Shown here piece after piece: positions 24,231-30,600 of a stretch of DNA of 64,000 nt. The stretch is from Flavobacteriaceae bacterium PS02334. GTDB taxonomy: Bacteria; Bacteroidota; Bacteroidia; Flavobacteriales; Flavobacteriaceae. Each line of letters begins with the position of its first letter. Within the stretch, counting starts at the first letter, position 1. The DNA lies in NCBI GenBank assembly GCA_029959295.1, contig JASCOH010000001.1:124001-188000 (forward strand), in the 5' to 3' direction. Both the position numbers and the translations under genes were made by a program. Under the pieces are notes generated by a model, which had not been told where the DNA came from, did not search any database, and saw only the letters and a program-made list of their open reading frames with translations.

Positions 24231-25283
24231 TTGGATTACTATCCTTTCGGGATGCAGATCACTGAGAGAACTGGAAGCAGTGATGAGTATCGTTATGGGT
24301 TCCAGGGGCAGGAAAAAGATGATGAGATTAAAGGGGAAGGGAATTCTTTGAATTATACTTTCAGGATGCACGACCCTAGGATTGGTAGATTTTTTGCGGT
24401 GGATCCGTTGTTTAAAGAGTATCCTGAATTATCACCTTTTCAATTTGCTAGTAATAGCCCTATCGATATGATTGAAATAGAAGGAATGGAAGGTGGCTGG
24501 ATAGTTAATGCGCAATATGAAGCCACCTATATGAAAGGCCCAGCTGTTGCAAATATTTTTGATAGTGAGCAGGTAGCCAGAAGAGCGGCTAGTCTTGGTG
24601 TCAGACTTCCCAAAGATCTAGCGAGAATGGAAAAATCTTATGCTGATTTTTTAAGTAGAATTCCTAAAGTTCAAACACCAGTTGCTCAATTTAGATGTGG
24701 TTGTGCAGTTTGCATAATGAATGGTAATAGAGACCAATATTTAGGAGGTCCCAACTCGATAGGTGGGGGAATAGGTATTGGAATGACTGAAGTCGCTAGC
24801 GACGTGGCTGTTGGAGGGGTGCTAAAGAAAGTTGGGGATGTTTATAAAGTATTTAAGACATACAAGCAATCCAAAATAGCTACAAAGGCACTCAGCAGTA
24901 CTGCAAAAATAAGTGATAATATTTATTATGGTGCAGAATTTATAGATGATGGACTGAGAATGGTTGATGCACCTTTACAGCTTAAATCTACTAAAATTGA
25001 TAAAATGGTTGATAAAGTGTTCACTACAAAAGCTCAACATGTAATAAATGGGAGCAATAATAGTGTTCATAATTGGGAGACTTTGGTTCCGGATAAAAAT
25101 CCAGAAAAAATAAAGGCAATAATAAAGAGTGTTTTAGAAAATGGTACAGACGTGGCATATAAAAGAGGTCAAGCAAAATCAATGCAAATAACTGTTAATG
25201 GAGTTACAAAAGAAGTTCAAGTACCTTATATAAAAGGACAAAATGGGGATGTAGAAAATTTCAGTACAGCATTTGTAAAATAA
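24231..25283 (+). pseudogene. Orphan RHS C-terminal tip (silent toxin cassette)
   Basis: The open frame begins inside the RHS core and has no ATG or evident promoter; the only initiator is TTG at 24231, and the frame is open back only to a stop at 24186. Residues 1-60 are the shared core ending in DPL. Residues 61-90 (FKEYPELSPFQFASNSPIDM) finish the RHS core with different sequence from the giant protein. The tip (about 90-350) includes CGCAVCIMNGN, a Gly-rich hydrophobic stretch, and a C-terminal 85 residues with KAQHVINGSN and VHNWETL, the sort of His-bearing pattern seen in small polymorphic nuclease toxins. The toxin family is not recognised. It is followed by a 129-aa gene 9 bases downstream. 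Confidence 0.75.
24234..24410 (+). repeat. 177-bp inverted repeat, orphan copy
   Basis: Base-for-base identical to the reverse complement of 28421-28597. It encodes the RHS core from DYYPFGMQIT to GRFFAVDPL in the same frame as the giant protein. Identity stops sharply at both ends: upstream sequence is unrelated and downstream codons diverge immediately (TTT versus GCT). Confidence 0.97.
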
Positions 25284-25292
25284 ATTAATAAA

Positions 25293-25682
25293 ATGGGAAA
25301 AATAATTTTAGAAAATTATTCTCAAGAATTAAGAAATAATTTTTTAATTCTTGAGAATAAAGAAGATGAATTAAGGGAATTGGTCGGACCCTTATTTGAT
25401 TTATATGGTATATTTATTATTTACATTTTAATTGAGATAGCATTCTCAAGGAATATTCCATTTTGGTTTAATCAAATAGGTTTTTTTCTGTCTTTTTATT
25501 TTTCTCATATAAATGGAGCTGAGAGAATATCTCTAGAAATGTTTAAAAGATCATTCGAGTTAAATTCTCAAGATATTCTAACTCTTCAAGCAATTCTAGA
25601 TTTTAGATATCCTCCAGAAATAATTCTAACGGAAAAAGAATATGATTACTATATTAAAAAGTTTGATCAGATGTCAAAATAA
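25293..25682 (+). CDS. Presumed immunity protein of the orphan RHS tip
   Basis: A 129-residue protein without a signal peptide, 9 bases after the orphan tip, which is the usual toxin-immunity spacing. It is acidic, with one hydrophobic segment (LYGIFIIYILIEIAFS). No family is recognised. A cytoplasmic immunity protein would fit a toxin that acts in the cytoplasm, in contrast to the lipoprotein partner of the active tip. A long hairpin lies in its first 25 codons. Confidence 0.65.
   Translation: MGKIILENYSQELRNNFLILENKEDELRELVGPLFDLYGIFIIYILIEIAFSRNIPFWFNQIGFFLSFYFSHINGAERISLEMFKRSFELNSQDILTLQAILDFRYPPEIILTEKEYDYYIKKFDQMSK
25316..25360. repeat. 16-bp perfect hairpin inside the immunity gene start
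   Basis: TTATTCTCAAGAATTA pairs exactly with TAATTCTTGAGAATAA across a 13-base loop. It starts at codon 8 of the gene at 25293 and could impede translation or mark a protein-binding site. Confidence 0.6.
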
Positions 25683-27174: not shown

Positions 27175-27618
27175 CTAATGATGTTTTCTTGCTTCTAAAA
27201 TTAGTGTTTGATTATCACATGGTAAATATGAAATATTAAATCTCTGAATTTGACTTGGATTTGAAGTTTGGTTTGTACCAAAATAATTTTTACTTCTTAT
27301 TAAGATTGAAAAATTTTTCATTGAATTATCATTTTTATCAAAACACATTTCATCGTAATTATTTTTAAAAATTTTGTAATTTTTTTCAGAATTATTACTT
27401 AAATAAAAAATATTAACTCCTGCTTTTCTATTAGTTAAAATTGCATTAAAAAAAATATTATTATTGTTTTCAATGATAATTGAATCGAATACAAATTCAT
27501 TACTTAAAATTTCAATTTTTTTATTTTTACCATCAAATTTAACTCTTTGATAACTAATTTTATCTTCACAAGATATCAACACAGATAAAAGTAAAAAATA
27601 AATTAAGCTATTTACCAT
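27175..27618 (-). CDS. Lipoprotein, presumed immunity to the active RHS tip
   Basis: Start is taken at the ATG at 27618 (the alternative at 27636 adds six charged residues), giving a 147-residue lipoprotein with signal NSLIYFLLLSVLISC. It overlaps the 3' end of the giant RHS gene by 11 bases, so it is translationally coupled. The mature protein has a beta-rich pattern (VKFDGKNKKIEILSN). No family is recognised. A lipid-anchored immunity protein suggests the paired tip acts in the periplasm. Confidence 0.65.
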   Translation of the reverse strand: MVNSLIYFLLLSVLISCEDKISYQRVKFDGKNKKIEILSNEFVFDSIIIENNNNIFFNAILTNRKAGVNIFYLSNNSEKNYKIFKNNYDEMCFDKNDNSMKNFSILIRSKNYFGTNQTSNPSQIQRFNISYLPCDNQTLILEARKHH

Positions 27619-30600
27619 ATTTTTTTTCGATCTCATTTTGCTCAGATTTTAATTTTTCATTCTCTTTCTGTATTTTGTTAATTAGTCCATCATATAATAA
27701 TATGCTACTATGATTAACATTTGTTCCATCCTTTTTAGCTTCATTACGCATATTTTGGGCTTTCTTTGTATAATATACTATTTCCTCATTGTTTGAGTTT
27801 ATTTTATCTTGTATTATTACCGCAGATCTAAATTGATTTCCTAACTCTTTTAAAAGTGAGGTTTTTTCATTATCTGTTAAATTGTTTTTTTCAGGGTCGA
27901 ATAAATCTAAAACCCTTCCTTCTTTAAAATTCAATAGTAACGGAATATATTTATCTTCAATTTCATATGCTTTTGCTTCTGTTGGAATATTATGTGGTTC
28001 ATATTGTGTTGCGTCTATCCCATATTTTCTATAAAACCAAAATGCTCCTTGCTCATAGATGTCTTGTTGGTGACTTTGCTCATGAGCAACAAGACCAATC
28101 CAGTATTTTCTTGGTTTTTCTATCTCTTTAGCTTTAAAAATAACCTTTTCAAAATAACAAATTGCATAAGGTTTTTTAGCTAAGAGATAAACTTGCGCTT
28201 CCTTGATAGTTAATTTTGGACTTGCCGTTGACACCCAAGTTGTACTAGCAAGTCTAACCTTATCAAAAAGAAAAACTGCATGCAATAACTCAATCATAGC
28301 ATTTGATAATTTACCATTTGCACCAACAATATCTTCAGGTTCAAGTCCTTCTAATTCAATAGCATCGATTATTCTATTTCCACTAAAAGCATATGGGCTA
28401 TAAAAAGGGTACTTTTTAGCCAACGGATCCACCGCAAAAAATCTACCAATCCTAGGGTCGTGCATCCTGAAAGTATAATTCAAAGAATTCCCTTCCCCTT
28501 TAATCTCATCATCTTTTTCCTGCCCCTGGAACCCATAACGATACTCATCACTGCTTCCAGTTCTCTCAGTGATCTGCATCCCGAAAGGATAGTAATCATT
28601 GAACGCAATTACATTTGGTATAAACCCATTATCTTCAATAGTTATAAAGTCAATTGCCAACTTTCTATCAGAAATAACTGAAAGTACATTTCCTAAGTGG
28701 TTTGATAATTCATAGCGCTTGTCTCCAACACGTCTAATATACGTTTTTTTACCGCCCAAATAACCTTCATGCTGTGAAATTCCTTGAAGAATTGGTCCGC
28801 AATCATTACTTGCACGAAATGGGCATGGATCACATGCATCTCCAATCCCGTCTAAATCAGAATCAATTTGTGATGGATTGTATACTGTAAGACAGTTATC
28901 GCATAAATCTCCTACTCCATCTCCATCAACATCTGATTGGTTTGGATTTGAAAGGTTTTTACAATTATCACATACATCTCCAACTCCATCCTGATCAACA
29001 TCAGATCTATCAGGATTATAAACCGTACGGCAATTGTCATTATTATCCATTACACCGTCTCCATCATAATCTACTTCCCCGCTCATACAGTGACTTGAAA
29101 TAAAATCACCAGAAACTAGCGCCGTATTTGACACCAAACTTAAAGCAACATCTGGAGAATTTCTCACATACAATCCATTTGACAGTACTTGTGCAGCAAC
29201 GCCATCAATTTGATTAGAAGAGTATAAACTAGCAGCTGCTCCATCAAAAGGGAATTCCATCTTGCGAGTCGGATCATCTTCATCTTTATAGCTATAATCG
29301 ATTGAATAAGATAAATCGCAAATTTGTGCAGAAATTCCGTTTATATCTTTTCTCAGTATATTGCTGAAATCTCCTCCATATCCATAAAAATTACTTACTC
29401 GACCAATAGAATTTCTCATCGGATCAATTCTTTGAACAAAAGGCCTAGAACCATTTCCATTGCTCCCCGTTCTTGATCTATCTGACTTCACATTATCAAA
29501 TTCCGGTACTGCACCGACTGATTTTTGGAAATCATTATTAGACAAAGTATAGATATTGCCATTGATAGTAAGCACAGGCTCATATGAACCTGAACCCGAA
29601 TTAAAATTTATCTTAGCATTGAAATCCCATTCTTGTTCAGGAATCGCATGATTAAGTATATATTTTTCTTGTGTATTATAGCTTCTATAATAAGTATATG
29701 TTCTTCTTCTGCTTCCTCTTTCTTTGGCGTAAATTCGAGTATATCGATCAAAAATAACGATAGGTACATAACCTTCACTACGCTTTTCAACAGTGATGTA
29801 AAAACTGCTCTTATAATATTTATTATCGCTAAAACTTTGGCCTTGAACAAGAAAATCGTCTTGAAGCATTAGCATATTTCTTTCACCACTCCACTGTTCG
29901 GTAAATTTAAGATGGGTATTGACTTCAAGTTGCAATGTTTTACTTAAGCTTGGCAAGCCATCAAAAAAGTTTAATTTTGAATGAGTATTACCCCATGTCA
30001 ATGCTTTATTTGTACTTAAAGTAACACCATTAATTGTGGGGTCATTATTTAACATATTGCGTGAAGCTTTGTCTCCTTTTAAAGAAATATCTTCATCAGT
30101 ATCTGCTTTCAGTACGCTTGCTTCACTGTTTTCGGCAACAGTCAAATCTAGAGAAATATTTTCAGTCCCTAAGCGGCTGCTTCCGTAGATGTGCGCTTCA
30201 TCCCAATATAATTTATCTATATTGTTTGTTCTCTCTTTAGAATAAACTGAAAGCACATTTCCTTGCGCATCGCGCATGTAAAACGTAGTTTTTGGAGAGG
30301 TCGATGTGCTGGAAACTGTTTTTGAAATTCTGTTTCCTAAACCATCATATTCAAAAGATATCTGCTGTCCGTTTCCTTTTGAAATTTTCTTGACCTTTCC
30401 ATCGACTCTCCACTCGATATTGGTTATTCCTTCAGCAATATCTTTTGTCAGTTGGCCAATTTTGTCGTATACATAATTACCTACCGGCTGATTATTTTCA
30501 ATATCATTTGGATGAGTTGCTGGAAGGGTACCAGTGTCTCTTACACGATTCAATTGATTATTTCCTGCATAATATTCATAATCAAGATTATCAAATATTG

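Follow-up and report, generated by a model that had tools for sequence, protein, structure and literature searches.

Polymorphic toxins have a constant body and an exchangeable C-terminal toxin with its immunity gene, and the excerpts of the survey by Zhang et al. (2012; PMC3482391) used here describe recombination with standalone cassettes and XerC/D genes beside polyimmunity loci, with neither an integrase nor inversion mentioned in them. In Salmonella LT2, according to an account likewise used in excerpt, orphan rhs-CT/rhsI pairs are thought to be silent, core recombination can join such a pair to the main rhs gene, and reversion has been proposed (PMC3967940). In the R64 shufflon, as excerpted, the tyrosine recombinase Rci inverts DNA, changing the C-terminal end of PilV, at sites whose core and right arm are conserved and whose left arm varies (PMC11852207). 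Here we describe a locus of Flavobacteriaceae bacterium PS02334 in which a giant RHS gene and an orphan RHS tip face each other across a tyrosine recombinase gene. The locus is very probably a programmed, reversible switch that inverts a warhead (the RHS tip) together with its immunity gene by a shufflon-like mechanism. It lies in a stretch of 64,000 nucleotides of contig JASCOH010000001.1 (positions 124,001 to 188,000, forward strand), hereafter the window, whose own numbering is used for the following features (ORF, open reading frame; aa, amino acids):

27608..38653, minus strand: giant RHS gene, 3681 aa, ending in the resident tip (DUF6443, RHS/YD repeat, TSP_3 repeats, Rhs_assc_core)
28421..28597, minus strand: repeat arm inside the giant gene, end of the RHS core, DYYPFGM...FAVDPL (repeat search and sequence comparison)
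28577..28591, minus strand: proposed crossover site TATCCTTTCGGGATG in the giant gene (inferred from relatives)
27608..28420, minus strand: resident tip (HEQSH motif recognised by eye, without a Pfam match)
27175..27636, minus strand: candidate immunity gene of the resident tip, 153 aa, lipoprotein-like start (from ORF position)
25830..26876, plus strand: tyrosine recombinase, 348 aa, the proposed invertase (Pfam, catalytic residues, predicted fold)
25293..25682, plus strand: candidate immunity gene of the orphan tip, 129 aa (from ORF position)
24231..25283, plus strand: orphan tip ORF, first possible start TTG, with a C-terminal Ntox35 domain (Pfam)
24234..24410, plus strand: repeat arm heading the orphan tip, the same as the other arm (repeat search and sequence comparison)
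24240..24254, plus strand: proposed crossover site TATCCTTTCGGGATG at the orphan head, the only other copy in the genome (inferred from relatives)

Positions 24234-24410 are the exact reverse complement of 28421-28597, with 177 of 177 bases matching and the match ending at both edges. A repeat search (seed 14) found this pair to be the sole inverted repeat of at least 30 nt within 18000-38000 and extended it beyond the perfect part to 192 nt at 98% identity. The 177-bp repeat has two copies in the whole 4.59-Mb, 69-contig draft genome, both at this locus, and a chance origin of the match is out of the question. Both arms encode an identical 59-residue peptide, and they are read in the same phase, since the distances 38653-28597 in the giant gene and 24234-24231 in the orphan ORF are both divisible by three. 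TIGR03696 was matched in the giant gene as well as in the orphan ORF. Behind the arms stand two tips unrelated to each other, each followed by a different small ORF; the 129-aa ORF starts 9 nt past the orphan tip, while the 153-aa ORF overlaps the end of the giant gene by 29 nt. The two pairs of tip and small ORF converge, with the recombinase gene in between. A preliminary description of this DNA had claimed a perfect inverted repeat in the giant gene and at the orphan head, with a different tip and immunity-type gene behind each copy and the two sets pointing toward each other, and this picture was borne out base by base and in the ORF layout. The locus thus combines the core, variable tip, adjacent small ORF and orphan pair of an RHS polymorphic toxin with an orphan cassette, and inverted sites flank a segment in the window as they do in an inverton or shufflon-like element. 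The arms, their phase, and the gene content and order are read directly from the DNA, as are the association that recurs among relatives and the inversion seen in them, both described below.

We propose that the recombinase encoded between the arms would pair the two TATCCTTTCGGGATG sites, in the giant RHS gene and at the head of the orphan cassette, and invert the intervening piece of roughly 4.35 kb. Since the sites share their reading phase, either cassette would be joined in frame to the constant RHS body with its immunity-type gene travelling along, and the displaced pair of tip and immunity-type gene would become the silent orphan. The frame would be preserved wherever inside the repeat the exchange fell, the cassette taking the rest of the 177 bp along. 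The tips are probably antibacterial toxins neutralised by the neighbouring genes; the HEQSH motif of the resident tip suggests a zincin-like metallopeptidase, and the position of the small ORFs behind the tips points to immunity genes. Orphan pairs are presumably silent, and the strain that carries the window presumably switches.

As in the R64 shufflon, a tyrosine recombinase would change a C-terminal end by DNA inversion; the left part of the array cassettes considered below is variable, in which it resembles the left arm of the R64 sites as far as the excerpted account goes, and multi-segment arrays exist among the loci here too. The present loci differ in that they hold RHS tips with their own immunity-type genes, belong to Bacteroidota and often have the recombinase between the cassettes, and since the target is an RHS gene the locus is not classed as an R64 shufflon proper (Rci, sfx sites, pilV). 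With the enterobacterial orphan rhs loci, as excerpted, it shares a presumably silent pair of tip and immunity gene that could be joined to the main rhs gene via core recombination. Theirs, however, lie downstream in direct orientation, with duplication followed by homologous recombination proposed (PMC3967940), whereas the orphan here is inverted, beside a recombinase, and would need no duplication. The constant body with an exchangeable tip and immunity gene is common to polymorphic toxin systems, and Ntox35 and other toxin Pfam domains occur in some tips of the present loci. Invertible type I restriction loci (PsrA, Streptococcus pneumoniae), in the part of their description drawn on here, likewise combine a tyrosine recombinase, DNA inversions and phase variation. 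Those loci alter the DNA specificity of a restriction-modification system, not a toxin and its immunity gene. Judged by analogy, the nearest working parallel is the R64 shufflon and the nearest biological parallel the Salmonella orphan rhs. In the open literature searched, a body from which subscription papers are mostly absent, no title or abstract described tips of RHS or other polymorphic toxins being switched by inversion.

The recombinase matches Pfam Phage_integrase (7.3e-13) and contains R177, K204, H290, R293, H316 and Y326, residues whose roles we take to be catalytic and which are invariant in 39 relatives. Its predicted structure (pLDDT 90) was matched by Foldseek to XerA, Tn1549 integrase, XerH, Cre and lambda integrase; together, the R-K-H-R-H-Y residues and the predicted integrase fold place it in the tyrosine recombinase family. 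PDB sequences searched with a three-row recombinase profile gave no match at 0.001. This enzyme probably performs the inversion.

We used the best 80 of the 88 loci found by scanning a collection of genome contigs with the window recombinase, giving 81 loci with the window included, and RHS cores were detected with a core profile built for this analysis. The relatives are mostly Flavobacteriaceae, with a few Chitinophagaceae and others. An RHS core lies near the recombinase in 76 of the 81 loci (75 of the 80 others), and the nearest cores on both sides converge on the recombinase in 47 (46 of the 80 others). Sorted by side and strand, the 178 cores comprise 90 left-plus, 72 right-minus, 16 left-minus and 0 right-plus. 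The recombinase was found at E 1e-100 in 27 of 398 genomes of a genus sample, the window genome counted, and at E 1e-60 in 6 of 395 genomes of a phylum sample. In a control search irrespective of the recombinase, 71 of 121 genus genomes had an RHS core, and all 27 neighbouring core pairs within 10 kb (17 genomes) were on the same strand. Because the strand comparison was confined to the top-scoring 150 cores of a longer list, it establishes a direct layout for other RHS arrays and leaves room for convergent pairs without a recombinase. The layout put forward earlier as distinct from known orphan cassettes, an inversion arrangement with an internal recombinase, stands, but it is shared by a whole family, mainly in Flavobacteriaceae, and is not unique to this locus.

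Inversion itself can be seen in a congener, G156, assembled in two contigs. The recombinase was found twice in this genome, near both ends of contig 1 (G156:C1) and on opposite strands. The two contig ends overlap directly over about 42.3 kb (1-42293 versus 3231603-3273945, same direction), which resembles a circular chromosome left unclosed by the assembler, with identities of 98.9-99.8% over long pieces and 95% in one 363-bp piece at the arm. Inside the overlap, 20227-24784 is inverted relative to 3256456-3251899 at 99.9% identity, and therefore both states are present in the sequenced DNA, unless the overlap is chimaeric. One tip, X (311 aa from core to stop, 310 of 311 identical), belongs to the resident cassette at one contig end and to the orphan at the opposite end, while a second, Y (336 aa, 335 of 336 identical), shows the reverse, and open frames of 8076 and 7299 nt precede the core in the resident states. 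When the four arms were aligned, they followed the flank up to a TA/CC difference immediately before TCC, and followed the tip after a shared 60 bp.

A second case is provided by L042 (Flavobacterium sp. P3160) and L098 (F. circumlabens), which are 99.96% identical and colinear from arm to arm, while their flanks (87-99.9% identical) have changed sides and direction. The repeat here is 30 bp long, and the exchange falls inside the 19-bp CTTTTGGAATGCTGGTACC. A limit of this case is that nothing in the 21 kb examined matched the giant gene, so the pair shows the reaction and not the switching of a giant gene. The L098 recombinase is frameshifted. The loci (L042 8311-13118, L098 8311-13117) hold a two-orphan element with the recombinase and no giant RHS gene in view, and this element may have moved.

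These cases bear on whether the inversion, although real, arises by RecA-type homologous recombination over the 177-bp repeat, with the recombinase as a bystander. Perfect identity over 177 bp should permit homologous exchange, and the 60 bp shared in G156 are also sufficient in length for it, a point that tells against the proposed enzyme. Homologous recombination has moreover been proposed, with duplication, for the Salmonella orphan rhs fusions in the excerpted account (PMC3967940). However, the L042/L098 inversion took place with a 30-bp repeat and a 19-bp exchange stretch, the recombinase recurs at such loci across families, and the arms diverge yet mostly remain identical at the proposed site. 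We consider a homologous route very unlikely. An assembly artefact caused by a repeat exceeding the read length appears extremely improbable. The window genome is a 69-contig draft, and many draft contigs stop within the arms or near the recombinase, the outcome expected of an unresolved repeat, but the arrangement also stands in single-contig genomes (L141, L142, L143, L144, L145, L146), and the 30-bp repeat of L042/L098 would be spanned by any usual read. For both reasons assembly error, which the preliminary description had named as a possible source of the repeats, is unlikely as a general cause.

Orientation was also compared more broadly. Both arms were present in 54 loci, which yielded 20 pairs whose left and right flanks each match for 500 bp or more. 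Of these pairs, which are not independent, 10 have the same and 10 the swapped orientation. Eight flank-linked loci form one consistent group, split 3 to 5 between the two orientations, and opposite states are also found at the loci of the sister recombinases L032/L033 and L034/L039. On a tree of 77 recombinases, 25 loci were scored (giant gene in view, recombinase not outside), of which 14 were left and 11 right, requiring 9 changes, and neither label was more clustered than expected from shuffling, in which values as low arose for left in 114 and for right in 226 of 500 shuffles. The predicted inversion was thus seen in relatives, at the G156 contig ends, between L042 and L098, and among flank-sharing loci, and the comparison of related strains that had been suggested as its check returned both orientations rather than one.

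In contrast with G156, where one assembly holds both orientations, the window strain is represented by one assembly with one orientation alone, which counts against the switch. A search of 299 genus genomes for each tip (E 1e-10) found no genome with the window's own tip pair in the other state; in the same search, the resident tip had one relative outside the window genome (G267, 36%), and the orphan tip one relative (G135, 35% over 140 aa mostly before the Ntox35 part), which sits inside a 3754-aa frame. The single orientation, along with the stops or frameshifts in several relatives' recombinases, would fit a frozen arrangement, in which inversions were rare and past, the locus is static today, and the orphan is a relic. 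Against this, the window arms are identical at 177 of 177 positions and the recombinase is intact, both states occur inside one congener assembly, and the orientation labels on the tree are no more clustered than shuffles. Such a frozen locus seems to us as improbable as the homologous route.

Under an inversion switch, the exchange point most likely lies near the outer edge of the repeats, at about 24240-24254 / 28577-28591. The inverted piece would then be nearer 24240-28591 than 24411-28420, and each tip would carry along its own copy of the RHS core end. Of the earlier proposal that inverting 24411-28420 would join the orphan tip to the giant gene in frame, the joining and the frame hold, while the endpoints are more likely at the outer repeat edge. 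The pattern TAYCCNTTYGGNATG has exactly two matches in the 4.59 Mb, one per arm at these positions, and its reversed control has 0. At the codons for P-F-G-M, third-codon agreement between opposite-strand core pairs within a locus (71 pairs) was 0.94, 1.00, 0.86 and 0.97, compared to 0.40, 0.52, 0.37 and 0.78 for random pairs between loci. The per-locus mean of third-codon identity was 0.97 at the site versus 0.54 downstream, with all four identical in 37 of 43 loci. The upstream sequence GATTACTATCC is mostly kept by two-cassette orphans and is not in many array cassettes, and a kernel of about CNTTYGGNA is kept by nearly all of 113 orphan heads. This kernel, together with the 19-bp interval of L042/L098, would place the crossover within or beside the kernel.

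Two other sequences were noted near the site and the recombinase. ACGTTCTT recurs approximately 25 bp before the site, upstream of TTTGG, in several orphan heads (non-coding ones included) and in giant genes, and is perhaps an extra binding site of the recombinase. A REP-like palindrome of the GGATTTGCAATCCGTGCCC type lies near the recombinase at about 26959-26990 in the window, with related ones in L141, L144, L039 and L034. Inner inverted repeats by the recombinase, first seen in L034, L037, L039, L041, L043, L141 and L144, were considered as recombination sites. In ten loci compared (L037 and L041 not among them), the REP-like palindrome was common to L141, L144, L039 and L034, other repeats were present in L043 and L068, short matches only in L032 and L150, and none in the window and L033; since these inner repeats vary between species, they were dropped as candidate sites.

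At least three RHS cores lie near the recombinase in 17 of the 81 loci (L048, L052, L055, L058, L059, L065, L066, L067, L070, L072, L077, L080, L092, L094, L096, L107, L110), a possible shufflon-like repertoire. In L046, L051, L054, L057, L089, L104, L106, L107 and L108, and also in L147 and L223, the recombinase is outside the convergent core pair. A layout of two warheads around a recombinase thus describes many relatives, but some hold more than two cassettes and others have the recombinase outside the segment. The existence of arrays with several cassettes, and of a two-orphan element with no giant gene in view (L042/L098), would also be expected if the recombinase mainly captured, excised and inserted tip cassettes in an integron-like manner, with inversion as a by-product. 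This explanation overlaps with that of an inversion switch. However, the events seen, in G156 and L042/L098, are inversions, and inverted sites in two-cassette loci would lead to inversion and not excision; we judge cassette capture as the main activity to be unlikely.

Several further observations weigh against a dedicated inversion switch. Stops or frameshifts interrupt 6 of the 81 recombinases, as well as that of L153. Five of the 81 loci are without a core, each with a contig end no more than 1.3 kb from the recombinase on one side; left plus cores stand alone in 12 and right minus cores alone in 3. A further 14 have a minus core at the left and none at the right; of these, 9 have a plus core still farther to the left, which leaves the recombinase outside the convergent cores, and the partner of the other 5 is out of view. 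Right-plus cores do occur in L147 and L223, beyond the 81 loci. The window's own switch pair, lower in score, is absent from the 150 best-scoring cores of the same-strand control. Directly repeated cores, a control of 9 loci from another RHS subfamily, also had raised third-codon identity (0.84 versus 0.68, all four identical in 5 of 9), so part of the rise at the site is unspecific and this signal alone is not decisive. Finally, the sites of G156 and L042/L098 and most array cassettes depart from the strict pattern, keeping no more than about CNTTYGGNA, and the pattern has been lost from the giant gene of L100.

The cargo of these loci is diverse. The 157 tips of the other loci fell into 125 clusters at 1e-8, and all tips differ in 51 of the 52 loci with at least two. 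A same-strand ORF of at least 60 aa is present near the stop of 154 of 158 tips, compared to 26 in the reverse-strand control. When 70 tips were scanned, at most 18 matched any family at 0.001; single tips matched Ntox23, Ntox35, LHH nuclease, CdiA_C_tRNase, PT-HINT and glucosaminidase, and up to three matched reprolysin-type peptidases.

Beside the locus, window positions 14593-23222 hold an operon with matches to PilN, secretin, a GspE-like ATPase and GspF-like protein, and weak prepilin-peptidase matches; this type II secretion or type IV pilus-like operon is possibly an export route. Upstream of the RHS gene and on its strand, 39399-50351 contains two ORFs, of 1785 aa (PKD, fn3, VWA) and 1863 aa (without a Pfam match). 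The same genome has a second RHS locus (G000:C66 273601-275437, within L029) with two cores on the same strand. A tRNA search of the window found none, and positions 20000-40000 yielded no Rfam match that reached the gathering score.

Polymorphic toxin tips have been described, in the sources as excerpted, as changing by cassette recombination without a dedicated machine. We put forward, as a possibility slightly less likely than not, that a dedicated recombinase family in Flavobacteriaceae and neighbouring Bacteroidota exchanges giant-RHS warheads together with their immunity genes by inversion in living cultures, with arrays shuffling a larger repertoire and perhaps moving cassettes from one place to another, and with clonal siblings differing in their weapons. 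If true, a programmed swap of toxin and immunity gene would leave clonal populations mixed in armament, and would raise the question of how siblings in opposite states survive one another: a flipped cell would retain both immunity genes, but if the orphan one is unexpressed, each such sibling would be a target of the other. The locus would also be one where tip swapping can be timed and counted, and the proposed site, the proposed enzyme and the two-state congener make the switch directly testable.

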